Origin: Sanderia malayensis
Taxonomy: Eukaryota; Cnidaria; Scyphozoa; Semaeostomeae; Pelagiidae
Length of the DNA stretch: 64,000 nucleotides
Direction: 5' to 3'
NCBI GenBank assembly: GCA_013076295.1
Contig: RQOL01000863.1
Span: forward strand, 2,112,180 to 2,176,179
Position 1 is the first letter of the stretch, and every line of letters begins with the position of its first letter. The translations under genes were made by a program, and so were the position numbers. Of the stretch, positions 48,880-61,534 are shown one piece after another. The notes under the pieces were generated by a model, which ran no database searches, was not told the origin of the DNA, and saw only the letters and a list, made by a program, of their open reading frames with translations.

Positions 48880-51800
48880 TGTCTATCCGTTTGTCTATTG
48901 TCTATCCGTTTGTTCTAAGTCATCGTCATCATCATCATCATCATACTGGCTGTGCGATCTCGCTTTCATGCATTTGCACCTGTGCCTATCTATTTTTTCC
49001 ATTAATCTCTTTACGTCATCGACAAAGAAGAAGTCCACGCGTTGTTTTATCAGACTGTCTATCTTCGGCTCAAACGCTTTAATCGTTATATAATAATAAT
49101 AATCAATTTATTTAAAGTTGGCTGGTAAATACATAGCGTGATTAACAAGTTAATTTTGCTAATTAAAGCCAACTATTTAAAATACTGAAAAAAATCTATA
49201 ATGTTTATTAAGATTCTACTTAAAATAGTCCATATATTTTTTTTAAATAAATCTGAAATGTTTATTAAAAATCTACTTAAAATAGCCATATAAGTTCCTA
49301 AATAAATGATTAAAACAAGCAATAATAATTCATATAAAAAAGTAGTGTATGGTACAATAAAAGATTTTAAAATTTAAAATGAAAATAATGTTAAAAAATT
49401 TTACGATTATAAATATCCAAGGTTTGGAACGAACGGTCTGCAGAGTCTACATGTGCATTCATTACCGCGCCATTGTTTTATCTTTGACCTAAATTGCAAG
49501 AAGGATTCAACATTTCTTATTTCTTCAGGGATGCGATACCAAAGTTGAGGCCCTCTATATCTTACAGTTTCAGAACCAAAATGTACAGTTTTAATCCTTG
49601 GTAAGAAAAATTCATTGCCATTTCTCAGGTTAAACATAACTTCTCGCTGCCTGAAAATCTCACTCATAAAAGGAGGGCTTAAATTGTTCTGAGTTTTGAA
49701 CATTTCTAACATAAGTGTTTGTAGATTCTTAGTGTGGATGGTCACTGCTTTGTCTCTTTCCAATAAGGTCTCAAAATTAGATTCATAGTCCTTATATGCA
49801 ATCCTTAAAGCTCTTTCGTGAATTTTATCAATTTTATTGTTTAAATTTCTGCTATGAAACATCCAAGCTAACGGGCAGTATTGAAATTGACTTATGACGA
49901 ACGATCTCATTAAAAGTCGTAATTTGCCTGAGCCCATATAGGGAGACAGACGAGAAAGTGCAAAAAGTTTATTGCCGGCCTTTTTACATAACTTTGTGAT
50001 GTGCGTTTCAAAAGTAAGTTTATTATCGATTGTGACACCTAGCAGTTTTTCCTGATCTGTATTCTCGATACTACTGTTACCTATATTTACCGTAACTGAT
50101 TGGTTGGCACTTTTCCCTAGCACTAATAAGTGACACTTATCTGTATTTAACTTCATAAAATTATCTGCAAACCATTGAACAATAAAATTAGAATCATTTT
50201 CCAGCTTCCCAATAACATTGTTGAGGTTCTTATCGCATGCATAAATAGTTGTATCATCTGCATAATTGCAGATATCTGTTTCGTCAATAGAGAACAACAG
50301 ATCATTTATGTAAATGTTAAAGAGAAGGGGGCCAAGAACTGATCCTTGTGGGACGCCTAAGCTAAGATGTTCAAAGTTACTAAAAGACCCATTGATTTTT
50401 ACCCTTTGTTGCCTGCCCTCTAGAAAATTGTAAATAAGACATAGAGCTTCACGACTAAAACCATAAGCGTTTAGTTTTGCCAAAAGGAGGTCGTGCTTAA
50501 TGCAGTCAAACGCTTTCGAGAGGTCCATCAAGATTGCACCCACGTTTTCCCCATTGTCTAAACTGACTTTCCATTTTTCAAGCATTCGAATCAAAGCATG
50601 TTGTGTGTTATAACCTTTGCGAAAACCACAAAGTAGAACCGATAGATATGGTGTTATATATTCAATAATCTGCCTATCCAAAATTCTTTCAAAAATCTTG
50701 GAAACCGTTGCGGCACTGTCACTCATGCTGTACAATGTATAGACGCCGAGGGCTAAATCATAGTTGTAGTTGGTCTTAAGCGTCTGTATTGTTTGGTTCG
50801 TACCATACTTGGCATTGTCAAACATTACCAGGTTAACGTTTGCGATAGACGCGCCAACGGCCTTTGCAATAACGCCACTTAGGAACAGATAGTCTGCTAT
50901 TTTGTTTGTCGTGTTCGCGATTGGTTTGAGACATGGTGCTATTGATGGTAAAGCAGCAATTAATTGTTGCTTTATTCTGTGGGCTTTGGCATTTGGAAAT
51001 TTCCAACAATATGAATGGTAACTTGTACCAATGACCAGGTGTTTGTTCATCTGCAATGAAATAAGGAAGAGAGATTTTCTCTTCTCTCAACTACTCAATT
51101 GATGATAATAATCTAGCCGGCGGAGATGTTATTCTGAAATGCATTTGACAGTTATTGGATTGTGAATGCTGGAAAGAAGAGAGAGATCGCCTAGGCAACA
51201 GAGAATGCCTTAAACAATGTTGCATTTTGGATACCTTTTTTGCAGTGGATGTTTTCAATACGTCGTAGCCACCCACGATCACTTGGGATGCCATTCCAAA
51301 TGCCTTGACTATATTTGCAACTGCCTTGCCTGTTGCCATGGCATGCATCATGCTTGCTTTGTTCTTGTGCATCCCTGAAGATGGCTTCATCTGAAAAATA
51401 CAACATTAATGTTGTTGTTGTTGTTGTCGTTGTTGTTGCTGTGATGATGTTGTAGTGTATAGTTTTGCAACCCGTATATTTATGTTTGTAGTTTCAGCCA
51501 AGTGGACTCAATTCATAAAGCGATTGTATTTGTTGTGAGTGGCTACATAGTAAGATGATCATCATACCTCAATGTATACAAGAAGATTCGTCTTTTTTGC
51601 CCAATGTAGAAGATCGTCAAGAAAGACAACTCTTCTTCGTCTATTGTAACGGTAAGTTTTCTTGCCTGCAATGGAGCAAATTATTGAGAAATTTCGTGCA
51701 TCTAAAATTCTTTGCAAATTAGCCCTCGAGGACATATTTCAGAAGTTACGGCCATTATGTTGCAAAAGGTGCAAGTTCAAAGACAGGGACGTGAAAATGC

Positions 51801-52966
51801 TTTAATTTGCCTATCATTCCATTCAGCTTTTGTGGTCTTCGAACTCCATCAATTATCATTGCAAATGCAAACTGTCATGTCCTGGAGATGCTCCCCGAAT
51901 GGAAAGAGACCATTGAATTTATTCATCCCAGCAGAAGTAGACAGTTCAAGTTCGGCCTCGTGCTGTTACGTGGCACGAGACAAGCGACATTATGCAATGC
52001 ATTTAATTGCGTGGCACGAAGGGCGAGTCGCGTGGCTGGGTGTGTGATGTCTTACCGTATTTGATGACTTTCTTGTATCGCAGTTTCTCAATCTCACAGC
52101 GTGTCATATCAATTATGTTGCGATTCACTCCCGTCAGCCTCTGCGGGTAAGAATACACGTGACATATTCAATAGATTATTGATGTATATTCTATCCTTTT
52201 CTGCAGCCCTCGTACTGATTACCTCGTGTTCATCAAGCTGTTTTTACACTGTTTTTACTCCCACTCTATGTAGATTTCCTTTCTCCAAACTACTTCACTT
52301 GAAACTATAAAGTGTGGGTCATTGCATCACACCAATGCGATGTCCAAATTGGCTTTATCGATTATTCTCGTAGATGTGAATTTTCTTGTTATCATGTTTG
52401 AATGCAACCAGTTTTGGACTTCCAAAAAAGCAAAAGGCGTTGCCTTTTCTTGCTACTAAATTTTCCCCTGATACAGCTACCTTCTCCACCTGCCATTGTA
52501 CTAAAATCCCACCTTGTGTACCTACCATTGTATTGTAGTCGTGGAAGCAAACAAGTTGTTTGTCTTTTGTCAGGAAAACATCGACCTCGAACCCATCAGC
52601 TCCTGCTCTTCGTAGACTTCTGAATCCATCAAAACTGTTCTCTTGATACCATATTGGATTGCCTCTATGCCCCAAAACGAATGGTTTTCGTTTCTCGTGA
52701 TAAATATGACAGTCCGGAATGCCACTCGTTCGCTTCAGAGAACAGGCCTTCTGCTCAACTTTATTACCAGATATAAAAGTCAAGAAGCAACCTGAAATAG
52801 ATGGACAGAATTTGTTAATTTATTTACATGAAAAGGGGGTGTTTGAAGCCCTGAGTGTATGTTAATTGCTGTATTTTGAATTTTGAAGTCTTTTATTCGT
52901 AGCAAGATAATAACATAACAACTTACAACTGAAAAAAGTAACCAAACAGAATGCTTTAAGCGCCAT
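48880..52966 (-). CDS. GDPD-family phosphodiesterase, copy A, fused in frame to a LINE reverse transcriptase
   Basis: Exons 52966-52927, 52791-52526, 52140-52056, 51665-51568, 51390-51235 and 51050-49407 read as 762 aa. The first five exons and the start of the sixth match copy B closely: signal peptide, then GHRGN, GFEVDV and CFHDY with the GDPD catalytic His-Arg, Glu-x-Asp and His. After SDSAAT the frame runs straight into SKIFERILDRQ of the LINE. The original gene tail survives beyond the insert (49083 to the old stop at 48895, KAFEPKIDSLIKQRVDFF and an Asp run). Removing the 1622 bases (element plus one 4-bp target copy) restores 392 aa in frame. Whether the fusion is expressed or the copy is a dying pseudogene cannot be told from sequence. 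GDPD enzymes hydrolyse glycerophosphodiesters; the signal peptide suggests secretion. Confidence 0.85.
49088..50705 (-). mobile_element. 5'-truncated jockey/CR1-type LINE in the last exon of GDPD copy A
   Basis: 1618 bp flanked by the 4-bp target duplication CGTT (49084-49087 and 50706-50709); comparison with copy B confirms an empty site. The 3' end carries a short ATT/TTA trinucleotide tail followed by the host sequence, as expected for target-primed insertion. The element codes for a reverse transcriptase from just after the usual start of the domain: LMDLSKAFD (motif A Asp), LGVPQGSVLGPLLF, NYADDTTIYA (motif C), LGVTIDNKLTF, then the C-terminal region to the stop at 49407. The endonuclease and ORF1 are missing. 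No in-frame stops or frameshifts across about 430 codons, so the insertion is fairly young. Confidence 0.93.
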
Positions 52967-53842: not shown

Positions 53843-56604
53843 TTACTGTCTGTCCATTTGCTGTTCGGCCTGGTTTTCATCTGCCATTACGTCATTCAAA
53901 TCATCATCATCATGATCATCATCGGCCTCTTCTTCATCTGGGATGACGTCATTCAAGTCATCATTACCAACATCATACTTGCTGTGCGACCTCGTTTTGG
54001 TGCATTTGCATCTGTGCCTATCTATTTTTTCCACCAATCTCTTTACGTCATCAACAAAGAAGAAGTCCACGCGTTGTTTTATCAGACTGTCTATCTTCGG
54101 CTCAAACGCTTTAATCGTTGCGGCAGTGTCAGTCATGCTGTACAATGTATAGACGCCGAGGGCTAAATCATAGTTGTAGTTGGTCTTGAGCGTCTGTATT
54201 GTTTGGTTCGTACCATACTTGGTATTGTCAAACATTACCAGGTCGACGGCTGTAAAAGACGCGCCGATGGCCTTTGCAATAACCCCGTTCAAGTAAAGAT
54301 ACTCTACAAATTTGCTGGTCGCTATTGGAGTGAGACAGGGTGCTAATGATGGAAATCCAGCAATTACTTGGTGCTTTATTGCCGTGATCTGGGCACTTGG
54401 TATTTTCCATACATCCGAGTGCAGAGCTGTACCAATGACCAGATTCTTGTTCATCTACAATCAGATCAAGATATTTTTGTTATTTTCTGAAAGTATTGCA
54501 GCTTATTAGCCACTAAGGGTTCTTTGCCCATCCACTACCTTACCCCCTGGACAGATGTCACTTGACATTGTCCACAAATCGGGGATAATATTCTGGCCGG
54601 GCGATGTCCAATTTTTAATAACCAAGTTGAGAAAAAATGCCAAACAATGGTGGATTTTGCATACCTTTTTTACAGTGGATGTCTTCAAAACATCGTAGGA
54701 GTCTATCATGACCTGCAATTCCATTCCAAATGCCTTGACCATTTTCGCCACTGCCTTGCCTGTTGCCATGGCATGCATCATGCTTGCTTTGTTCTTGTGC
54801 ATCCCTGAAGATGGCTTCATCTGAAAAATACAATATTGTTGTTGCTGTTGTTGTTGTGATGATGCTATCGGGCTGTGTATAATTTTGCAACCCTTATGTT
54901 TATGTTAGTAGTTTTAGCCAAGTGGTCTCAAGTGTTGTGAGTGGCTGGTAAGATGGTCATCATACCTCAATGTATACAAGAAGATTCGTCCTTTTTGCCC
55001 AACGTAGAAGATCGTCAAGAAAGGCAATTCTTCTTCGTCTATTGTAACGGTATGTTTTCTTGCCTGCAATAAAGCGAATCATTGAATTATTTAGATGTCT
55101 TGAAAAGCCCACACAATCCCAATAAGCCCAACTACAAATTCTTTGTAAATTAGCCCCCCGGGACATTCAACTTTTGTGGTCTCCGAATTTCATCAATTAT
55201 CTTTGCCAAGCATCGTGTCCTGGAGATGCTCCCCGAAAGGAAAGAGACCATAGAATTCATTCATCCCAGCAGAAGTAGACAGTCTGATAGTTTACTTGAA
55301 AACAGGAATTGTCTCGTGCTGTTACGTGGCACGACACAAGCGACAGTACGCAATGCATTTAATTGCGTGGCACGAATGGCGAGTCGCGTGGCTGGGTGTA
55401 TGGGGGTGTTTGACGTCTTACCGTATTTGATGACTTTCTTGTATCGCAGTTTCTCAATCTCGCGGCGTGTCATGTCAATTATGTTACGATTCACTCCCGT
55501 CAGCCTCTGTGGGTAAGAATACACGTGGCATATTCAATAGATTATTGATTCATTTTAAACGTGTTTTCGTGAAAAACGCTGGCGTCTTCCCTGGGAACCA
55601 GACGCAAGGCTTTGCAGTTAACGGTTTCTCATTTTTGGCCGCATTTTAGTTCTGAAAGTTATTTAAAACATCTTAATTTTATGAATGGAAATTACAGTGA
55701 AAGGGGAAAAAAGCGTTGATGTGTAGCAAGCTATTTGTATTATTTCAAAACATCATTCAAATCATGGTCATGAACATCATATCCACACCCATATAGTCGA
55801 TATAGTCCTTGTTTTTGTCATAGAAAAGTATATTGAACCTGCAAATGCGGGCACGGAACGTTTTTTAATTAATTTTTAATTAAAATTTTTTAATTACTTT
55901 TTTGTAGCTCTAAGAGTTTCTTAAATATTAGGGTGTCTAGTACTAGCTTTTTGGCAACCTCGCTTCTTATGCTTGGATCATCTTCATATTTGCTGGCTGG
56001 TCTATCTCTACCCCCTCACTTTGGGTTCACCCAGCTGTTCTTGCACTATTTTTTCTTCAGCAATCTTGTAAATATTTTCATATCCACAAACAAATTTCCT
56101 TTGAATCTATTGACTGACTTAGAGCTATCGGGTGACGATCTGTTTAGTTAGCATGCAAACTCATTATCATCCTTTTAAACTTCCCAGAGTACTTTTTCTA
56201 CCTACCATTGTGTTATAGTCGTGGAAGCAAACAAGTTGTTTGTCTTTTGTCAGGAAAACGTCGACCTCGAACCCATCAGCTCCTGCTCTTCGTAGACTTC
56301 TGAATCCATCAAAACTGTTCTCTTGATACCATATGGGATTGCCTCTATGCCCCAAAACGAATGGTTTTCGTTTCTCGTGATAAATATGACAGTCCGGAAT
56401 GCCACTCGTTCGCTTAAGAGAACAGGCCTTCTGCTGAACTTTATTGCCAAATATAGGAGCCCAAAGGCAACCTGAATAAGAAAATATATGGACAATATTT
56501 ATTTATAGGAAAAATGAATTTCGTAGTCTTTTATTCGTAGCAAGATATCAACATAACAACTTACAACTGAGAAAAGTAACCAAACAGAAAGCTTTGAATG
56601 CCAT
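53843..56604 (-). CDS. GDPD-family phosphodiesterase, copy B (intact)
   Basis: Six exons (56604-56565, 56471-56206, 55506-55422, 55063-54966, 54820-54665, 54454-53843) give 418 aa; exon lengths 1-5 are identical to copy A. Residues 1-15 (MAFKAFCLVTFLSCC) look like a short signal peptide. The GDPD fold starts with VLGHRGNPIWYQENSFDGF: His55, Arg56; Glu82 and Asp84 in GFEVDVF; His97 in CFHDYNT; then LLVYIEMKP, the second metal-site strand. The family uses a divalent cation to split glycerophosphodiesters. The C-terminus adds RHRCKC and an acidic tail with two DDLNDV motifs that copy A lacks. Head-to-head with FANCA, ATGs 484 bp apart. It is like bacterial/UgpQ-type GDPDs rather than GDE1 or GPCPD1, as far as I can judge; substrate unknown. 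Confidence 0.9.
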
Positions 56605-57088: not shown

Positions 57089-60000
57089 ATGGATACTGGA
57101 TTGGTTAGTGATGCAAACAAGGATTTTGATAGTCTTATCAACAGAGCCAAGGAAGGATCACACTACTTTGTCAAGTCTTCACCGGAAGAATTTCAAATGA
57201 AAGGTAAGTTGAAGAAGCTTCTCAAGCTAGGCCTTTTTGGGGACCTAAAGGAGCAGTAGGTTTCTGTGCACGCCAGTTTTTAATGAGATATCCCCGGTGT
57301 ACGGGAACTTGGTTTTATTGTTTTCTATCGTTTTTCTTTGTGTATTATTGTTTAAATTTGCTGTACCATCTGCATATTAGCTAAACAGATCGTTTGGATT
57401 GAGTTTGAGTTTTTTCCACTCGCACTCCACTCTCTCTATTTTTAAGGTCCTGCAAGAACTGTTAAACATATATCAAATGTGATAGATTCGTTGCCTGTGC
57501 TCGGAATCTTGTCAGAGATTGGGCTGAGCCAAGAAGAAAATGACCAATCAGAATTCCGGGAAGAGAACCAGGAAGCAGCAATCAACAAGCAGCTTAATAA
57601 CATGCACCAGAATCTAGATTTGCAAGATGATATGTTGGTGGATATTTGCCCCAAATACTTCACTACAGAATTTCTAGCTAAACTCTTAGTGACGTTTGGT
57701 AAAAAGACATCCATTGTTGATAAGGATGCAGACACCAACCTTGATGCAGTTAAAGGCATCATCAAGGTGACAAAGAAACTCGTGCATCAAAGTAAGATAG
57801 ATCCATGTGTTCTTTCAAGGCATGTACTGTCAAATTTACATGTGTTTTCACTGCATGTTATTATTGAGATGGCAGATTCACAGCTTATATCTGTAAAGCA
57901 GTGGGTTTGTGAATTCTACAAGAAAAGTCAATTGTTGGACATGAAATACCAGGTTGTTGACTACATGAAGAAACCCAGTTCTGTAGAAAACTGTAGCCAC
58001 AGCAAACTTAAGAAATCTATGAAATTTCTTCTCCACATGCCAATGTTTAATAACGTTTGCTCTGATTATGACAAAGAGACAAGACACAGTGTGAATCAAG
58101 CTGTCTGTTCTATATTTGAGCAGTTGGATTTTTCCCAGATCTTCCTTGATAAACATCAGTGTAGCACAAGCAGTAATGATAAGTTCAGCCTCGTTTTGAG
58201 GATCAGTACCGAGACTGGTGATCATCATAATAATGAGAAACTTCAGCTCTTCACTTTGCTATTAGAAAACATGCTGAAAAGTGGAAATAATTTCATTGCT
58301 CTAGAGGACACTTTTGTGAAGCACGTTGATTGGCTGTATCAAGAACTCGATACGAGAACTACATCTGTTCTGCAAGAGATGCTTCTATATTTGGAAAATG
58401 ACGTCATTTTGGGAGCGGTCAAATCCAGTTTGAAATACAGCGCCGTGAGATTTCAGCGTTTGCTGTCGTTGTTGTCTGTCTGGTTGATCTGCTGCGAGGG
58501 CGCATGGAAAGCTGTTGTCGAGTTGCTGCGCGCGCAGATTGACATTGCAGTCGAAGTGAGAAGTGAGGATTATTTGAAGAGATGTCTTTTAGTGGCGAGA
58601 CACTGTTCTCTTGAGAGGCTATCCGGTTTCCCATCTTACGATGATTGGTTTGCAGAGCATATAGCCTCTCTGATTGGTGCGTTTTTCACCGAAGAGAGGT
58701 CGCTGGTTGGTTTCTACGTGAACTGCTTGACGAGTTTGTTGCCGGTTGAGTCGAAGTTTTTCCTCAATGTTCAGCTCTCCGCCGTCGCAAAACTACAATC
58801 GCTTGGAAAGGGCATCGTAAGCGAGTACACGAATGCTGGTAAGACGAAAATCAGCTATACCAAAGACACGAGACACGACACGAACACGAACACGAAAGCA
58901 TCGAGTTCAATGCTAAGCGTGCAGCTGAGTGAATTTGCCGTTAAAGACGTTGAGAAGGCCGTGTGTCAGTATGCAGCTACGTTGAAAATACCCACGGGTC
59001 TGCTGGAGGTGAGCGTGTTTCGAAAGTCCTACTTTGTTGGGTCGTTTCTGCCCGCGTTGTTGGTTCCTGGCCTTGTCAAGAACGATGTTAACAGGCAGAG
59101 ATTCGTGGAAGATCTGCGCAAGGCTGGAAAGATTCCCAGTAAAGTTATGCACGCCTATGAACAGGCGTTGGAGGCGTACGAGTTGGAGGAGGTTTTCTGC
59201 GCAGCTGATGTGAAGCTAGACGATCTGCTTGAAGCCGTGTTGAAGAAGGTATCAGAGCTGCCTGGCGTTGCGGAGGTGAGACGACATGCGGAGGAGCCGA
59301 AGAGACGTCGCATTATCATGCAGTCATATCTTTCATCATTGTCTCTTCACTTGAGGAAACTCTACGATGCTTTGAATGCAGGCTCTACTATTGAAAGTGA
59401 GAGGTATCGTTTCGAAGGAAGGGTAGTAAGCGACATACTCGATAACGTTTGCCAAGTCTGTGCTACTGAATTATCTGCTGATAATTCTAGTTTAAAGTTG
59501 CTTAAATCGTACATGAAGATGCTGGGGGACCATAAAGGTCTGCAGGTAATGTTGGAAGCAAAAGTGTTGATGCTGTTACGCGATGAACTTGAGAATCTGG
59601 AGAGGTATCACTTGAGCGGTATTGCTTGCATCATTGCTGCATGTAGTAATGGTTGCAGTGAAAAGAATGTTGGCGAATCGATCATGGAAAGTGCTGTAGA
59701 GAGCGTAAAACGGGCAAGAACGCCATTCTGGTTGCACAAATCTCTTCTTTTTATATCTGACGTTTTTCTGTTCTGCAATGAGCTGTACAGCGATGTGATT
59801 ATCACCAGTGATGAAGTGATTGCAATCACTGCCATCAGTGATTCAGTGATTATATCTGATCGTGTGATGAAGTATTTCTCTTTGATGCTGATGCGATTGA
59901 AATCAATGCGGATTATCATGACGAATCGATCGATCAATGATCATGATGATTCAATCAAAGTGATCAGTGATGCAATCGCGCTTGCTTGTTCTGTTGAGAA

Positions 60001-61534
60001 GCTGGATGCATTTAAAACTTATTTCTCTAATAACTCGATATTGTCTGCAGACTGGTTAGAGTTTGAACTGGCTCTGAATCCGTGCTTTGATCTCATGTCT
60101 TCGTTTCAAAAGCAGGACTACTATTATCACGTCATAAATGATATGGCCGCAACTTCTACGTGTTCTAGTGATTGGATGTATTTGAGCGTTGCTTCGAAAA
60201 TTGTCCACGTCTTGCTTGAATCGGGAGGTGTTAAAACAGAGCCTTTCAAGTGTGCTGATCATTGTGGAACCAATTGGAAATATTCCCAAATTATTAAGAC
60301 GAACCAGAGTAGTTTTAACGGCATGCTAAGTCTTCTGCAGTCGTTGAATTACAAGATATCTTTTGAAGGAAGGCACAGTGACAACCTGAATGCTTTGACG
60401 TCGAAGTGGCTGCTGTCAGCTTTCGAAGGCTGGCTCAAAATGGCACCAAGTGAATCCGGCCAATTTAGCACTGACCGAAACAACAGTTCAGTTGATGATA
60501 CTCTTGTTGCAAACAAGAAGGTATCAACCAACCAGGTTTCTATATTGTGTTACATTCTTCGTTCCTTGCCACCCGCCACCCTCTTCTCCACTAACTGCCT
60601 TTCTGATTTGAATTCCACATCAAGAAATAAAAGAATTTACGAGGTCGCAAGCTTTATCAATGACTTGGCCAAGTTTTTACTTCACGGCAGTTGCAGCTTC
60701 GTGTTGCCTTGCGATCTAACCGAATGCTTCGTGAATGCCATTATAAGCTACTGCGAGTTTTGTTCTTCGAGTCTTGGTGGTAGGAACAACAGTGGTTTTG
60801 ATGAAAGTGTAAAGCGTTTGCTCGAAGCTAGTCCAGTTATTTGTGTTTCAATTGCTTGCCATTCAAAGCAGGACCACATCGCGAATCGTCTTGAAAAATG
60901 CACTTCAAACGAACTGTATTGCTTCAAGGAATTACTTCTTCTGCAACAGGCGATATCAGCAGAGACTCGCTTTCACGGTGATGCCTCGTTCTCAGCACAG
61001 ATAATCGGTATTTGTATTTTTGTGTTGGGGAGTTCAATCGACGGCTCTCTCCTGCGCAGTAACCTAGTCACTGTACACCGCAAGGAGACGTTACAGGTCG
61101 TGTTCGATTGCTTCATGATTGATCTGAGTAAGGGCCTAATCGAAGGAACTGCAATGGAGAAGCTTCCTGTTGCTCTTGGGATTTTCAAGAAGATCCCTGG
61201 GATTGCACTCAGCGTAATTGAAGACGTCTTGGAAAATAGGGATCGATTGGGATTGCAAGATCTGCGGAAAATTTTTACTGCTGGTGTATGCACATTGGGC
61301 ATGTACCCTGTTGCAGTGTTAAAGGTGCTGGCGCTAATGGACCCGTTGTGTTTGCAGAACTTCGCCTGCAAACCTCGAGGCAAAGACGTCATAGCAAAGT
61401 GCATACGTCGTGTAGAATCTATTGTAAATGACGTCACATCTGAATGGCCTGAAGCATTGTTGTTGGAGCCGCTGAGCGTTGCATTTCTCGAAGATATGGA
61501 AAGAATTGCAGGAAGATTGAAATTGATTCGTTAG
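57089..61534 (+). CDS. FANCA: Fanconi anemia group A protein
   Basis: Two coding exons only (57089-57203 and 57447-61534) give 1400 aa, close to human 1455. FANCA is a scaffold of the nuclear FA core ubiquitin-ligase complex (with FAAP20 and FANCG) that monoubiquitinates FANCD2-FANCI at DNA crosslinks. The protein is all helical repeats; the best family matches are residues ~350-430 (VRFQRLLSLLSVWLICCEGA, FPSYDDWFAEH, LLPVESKFFLNVQ) and ~495-540 (DVEKAVCQYAATLKIPTGLLE, VFRKSYFVGSFLPALLVP, FVEDLRKAGKIPS). Later matches include DWLEFELALNP and DLAKFLLHGSC. The N-terminal 150 residues are weakly conserved. Exon 1 (MDTGLVSDANKDFDSLINR) is supported by phase and by its duplicated relic. The 4.1-kb uninterrupted exon is unusual. 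A GTGAT-rich stretch at 59790-59980 codes for a region absent from vertebrate FANCA. Confidence 0.95.

Follow-up and report, generated by a model that had tools for sequence, protein, structure and literature searches.

Does a long open frame that runs from a host gene into a retrotransposon mark a new chimeric gene, or an insertion that has broken an old one? The question is raised by a locus of the jellyfish Sanderia malayensis, found in a stretch of 64,000 nucleotides (the window; contig RQOL01000863.1, positions 2,112,180 to 2,176,179). Here a glycerophosphodiester phosphodiesterase (GDPD) gene can be read without interruption into the reverse transcriptase (RT) of a LINE.

Gene structure and the in-frame reading

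The locus consists of two tandem GDPD genes, copies A and B, both on the minus strand and with an identical six-exon layout. The introns of copy A are all GT-AG, and its exons are as follows:

52927..52966, minus strand: exon 1, with the start codon and, by inspection, a likely signal peptide; donor GTAAGT
52526..52791, minus strand: exon 2, which carries the HRG, E-x-D and HD motifs and the PF03009 match; acceptor TTTCAG, donor GTAGGT
52056..52140, minus strand: exon 3
51568..51665, minus strand: exon 4
51235..51390, minus strand: exon 5
50706..51050, minus strand: host portion of exon 6, ending at the insertion site and sharing 81% identity with copy B

Read as a fusion, exon 6 extends from 51050 to 49407, passing from host GDPD sequence into the LINE, and the joined exons give an open frame of 762 aa that terminates at the LINE's own stop. 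The junction falls between ACG (50708-50706) and GTT (50705 downwards), that is, between T and V, in frame and on the same strand, and the RVT_1 profile is matched at positions 19-205 of 205. A preliminary description of this DNA had proposed an open last exon, an in-frame junction and a nearly whole RT domain, and was right on each point.

The host part of exon 6 diverges unevenly from its counterpart in copy B (54454 downwards), with a dS of 0.35 over 113 codons and of 0.07 in the last 45, a pattern that suggests patchy gene conversion.

On the plus strand, beside these two intron-rich genes, lies an uninterrupted frame of 1362 codons (57446-61534), with no stop over 4 kb, that matches the FANCA domains Fanconi_A_N, FANCA_helical and FANCA_arcN.

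Anatomy of the insertion and the empty site

Comparison with copy B, which has a single AACG and no insert at the matching site, delimits the element and its target-site duplication:

49088..50705, minus strand: 5'-truncated CR1-like LINE (1618 bp), comprising the last 432 ORF2 codons (RT and C-terminus), the stop TAA at 49409-49407 and a 3' UTR with a terminal ATT repeat
50706..50709, minus strand: AACG target-site duplication, 5' copy (CGTT on the plus strand)
49084..49087, minus strand: AACG target-site duplication, 3' copy (CGTT on the plus strand)
48895..49086, minus strand: stranded 3' part of copy A, 63 codons plus TAG (48897-48895), still open, holding the last barrel strand (DFFFVDD)
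53843..56604, minus strand: copy B, the tandem paralogue, which is intact and has the empty site; its 418 aa match EukProt gene18155 exactly

The earlier proposal that copy B supplies the empty site and that CGTT brackets the element is thus upheld. Among the 29 other LINE loci found in the genome, 23 extend to element position 1613-1618, and the 5' ends vary among copies where the retrieved flank reaches them. Both hallmarks of insertion by target-primed reverse transcription are present: a target-site duplication with an empty site, and a common 3' end with variable 5' truncation.

The stranded 3' part shares 92.6% identity with copy B over 163 bp, and its dN/dS against copy B is 0.20 over 49 codons; that the GDPD frame goes on unbroken past the element had escaped the preliminary description. 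Copy B itself matches the PF03009 profile and has the GDPD fold; its closest named relative is a protein of Rhopilema esculentum, at 44% identity. The GDPD family also extends beyond copies A and B: the same genome has other relatives on contig C569, near 3736468-3740705 and 1881138-1883249, with 26-45% identity, and one set of them seems to form a tandem pair.

Affiliation of the LINE

We call the element CR1-like on the basis of domain layout rather than of an RT tree. The layout is that of a longer relative, L033, which has an ORF1 with a match to Lipase_GDSL_2 (GDSL/SGNH hydrolase; 33.0 bits, cut-off 32.9), an upstream endonuclease match that is weak (Exo_endo_phos_2, 16.7 bits, below the cut-off of 27.4) and an RT (RVT_1, 112.8 bits), its ORF2 being split between two frames. 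In this order of GDSL/SGNH ORF1, weak endonuclease match and RT it resembles the CR1-like LINEs with an esterase ORF1, although CR1 is not alone in having this layout: PMC3905857 reports esterase ORF1s from CR1, RTEX and Penelope elements, including cnidarian ones. For the Jockey superfamily, another paper (PMC4120745) states that vertebrate groups were the only ones in which an esterase ORF1 was found. An esterase-type ORF1 in a jellyfish LINE (L033, 2908-3648) may be set against that statement, with a bearing that depends on the clade of the element.

Age of the insertion and origin of the open frame

The genome (184,004,477 bases in 918 contigs) was searched with the element, resulting in 43 matches, 30 of which were taken as loci, one being the window's own copy. 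Four of the 29 others (L012, L020, L022 and L024) were set aside because they were presumed to be second views or haplotigs, and L027-L029 because each is a tandem near-copy of L026, leaving 22 copies for comparison. Against these, the LINE in the window carries one private substitution in 1618 bp, in a systematic count limited to substitutions. The change is synonymous (CAA/CAG at 50409), and all 14 copies covering the position differ there from the window copy. The 95% upper bound is 5.6 substitutions, or 0.34%. One sibling, L013, differs from the window LINE at a single position in 1157 gapless bp, and the change is on L013's side. The insertion is very young. The preliminary description had left a choice between a very recent hit and a chimeric gene under constraint, and these counts speak for the former; for constraint on the RT part, a single private and synonymous substitution gives dN/dS no power.

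Of L002-L009, the eight longest copies besides the window's own, half also have the 432-codon RT frame open in one piece, and the remaining four show a stop or a split. Given one private synonymous substitution and siblings open over the same codons, the clean frame is, on the evidence of these copies, inherited from the source element. A very young insertion has also had little time for its frame to decay: under an assumed indel rate, the chance of the frame still being open in the absence of constraint is ∼86% if one change is expected and 46% if five are. The argument that the frame is clean over some 430 codons, earlier presented as a further coincidence, is therefore weightless, whereas the accompanying arithmetic, by which one insertion in six would match both strand and frame, is sound. 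A first look at the genome yielded 2410 RVT_1 candidates, of which 150 were scored; with that number of candidates and odds of one in six, an occasional in-frame case would need no special explanation.

Predicted consequences for the enzyme

The insertion site lies after residue 328 of copy B, and residues 329-418 of B, including strand 346-349, are missing from the fusion. Solved GDPD folds align over residues ∼37-367 to the structure model of copy B, which is of moderate confidence (mean pLDDT 60.0, from an alignment of five sequences). Six residues invariant in all five aligned proteins (E333, L339, D350, D351, L355 and R361) lie beyond the site. Unlike other GDPDs (PF03009), the fusion reading of copy A has no complete TIM barrel, its last strand and helices being absent. 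From the modelled fold we infer that the insertion breaks the barrel of copy A and that activity would be lost, with the upstream catalytic motifs all remaining in place.

We consider it very likely that copy A has been disabled by a young, in-frame exonic insertion of a CR1-like LINE while its tandem twin, copy B, is intact. Following what is generally known of LINEs, the element would have been copied into the last coding exon by target-primed reverse transcription, a process that, as the anatomy shows, truncated it at the 5' end and duplicated AACG. By chance it landed in sense and in phase, and the host frame consequently enters the ORF2 frame and stops at the element's stop. Transcription of copy A, should it occur, would by default give a message that ends at a poly(A) signal within the LINE. 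Candidate AATAAA hexamers occur in its 3' UTR at 49266, 49209 and 49112, but they are weak evidence because the exon and element contain such hexamers at four sites further upstream. The default product would be a GDPD minus its last strand and helices, plus 432 LINE residues, and misfolding would be expected once it enters the secretory pathway; the copy A allele would thus in effect be a knock-out, with copy B whole. The insertion is probably still polymorphic.

Alternative readings of the locus

The public gene model P0002 (EukProt gene18154-19965_t, 420 aa) shows no fusion. It implies the following intron:

49077..50614, minus strand: implied intron (1538 bp, nearly all LINE), donor AAAG/GTTATA, acceptor ATTAAAG/CG

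On this reading the LINE has become an intron: with 50614-49077 spliced out, most of the element is removed, the GDPD C-terminus is restored, and copy A encodes a 420-aa GDPD in which 30 LINE residues replace two host residues. Exon 6 and the C-terminus of the model match the window letter for letter, the downstream GDPD frame is intact past the LINE, and RNA-seq was one input to the annotation pipeline, according to the genome paper (PMC7305137). The implied splice sites, however, are poor by a small matrix, whose training set was the ten introns of the two GDPD copies themselves, amounting to five paralogue pairs. The donor reaches 1.6 bits, where those introns give 7.9-11.1, and ranks 21st among 96 GTs in the region; the acceptor scores -6.0 bits, against 6.3-15.7, and ranks 89th among 119 AGs. 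According to the same paper, the assembly was soft-masked and annotated with several ab initio predictors together with RNA-based PASA models, and soft-masking with ab initio prediction favours bridging a repeat. The structure model of the 420-aa product, from a shallow alignment, has a mean pLDDT of 50.3 versus 60.0 for copy B. Because the splice sites are weak, the intron is probably a prediction artefact, which we hold likelier than intronisation, and a LINE turned intron is unlikely.

We give little credence to a more specific form of this idea, an intron at birth. The LINE, whose private mutations number a handful at most, would already be spliced through a donor in ORF2 and a cryptic acceptor in the host exon immediately beyond its tail; the enzyme would keep its frame and gain 30 residues of LINE origin, and unspliced messages would yield the GDPD-RT fusion. 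Real splicing would make the locus an instance of intron gain from a LINE with a date attached. The locus is also a warning against gene models in which poor splice sites span young repeats.

That the fusion is a chimeric GDPD-RT gene maintained by selection is very improbable. The frame is open over 762 codons, in frame and on one strand, and its stop sits in the last exon, where nonsense-mediated decay would not be expected. Against this, the single private substitution offers no hint of selection on the fusion, the GDPD barrel is broken, and an N-terminally truncated RT would enter the secretory pathway. No protein combining GDPD and RT occurred among the 120 matches listed of 3455, as judged by precomputed Pfam labels after scoring the 7990 candidates that shared most words with the fusion. 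An assembly artefact joining LINE to gene is more improbable still, since the perfect 4-bp duplication, the clean LINE ends and a far-side remnant matching copy B are marks of a real insertion, and the assembly was built from PacBio reads according to PMC7305137.

Comparison with known fusions and insertions

A long clean host-TE fusion frame can be read directly from sequence yet say nothing on function; the age of the insertion relative to sibling copies should be considered first. Domesticated TE-host fusion genes are old, conserved between species and under constraint. Copy A resembles them in that host exons are joined to a TE-coded domain, but nothing in the locus shows age, cross-species conservation or constraint. 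It has the look of an unremarkable insertion that broke a gene, not of a newly working fusion gene.

Non-LTR elements that are 5'-truncated, flanked by a target-site duplication and lodged in exons break the host protein. LINE insertion mutations in coding exons are reviewed for mouse (PMC6466679) and human (PMC4859970). Like these insertions, the insert of copy A is 5'-truncated, carries a target-site duplication and lies inside an exon. Unlike them, it is in sense and in phase, and the host frame meets no early stop and continues into the RT frame.
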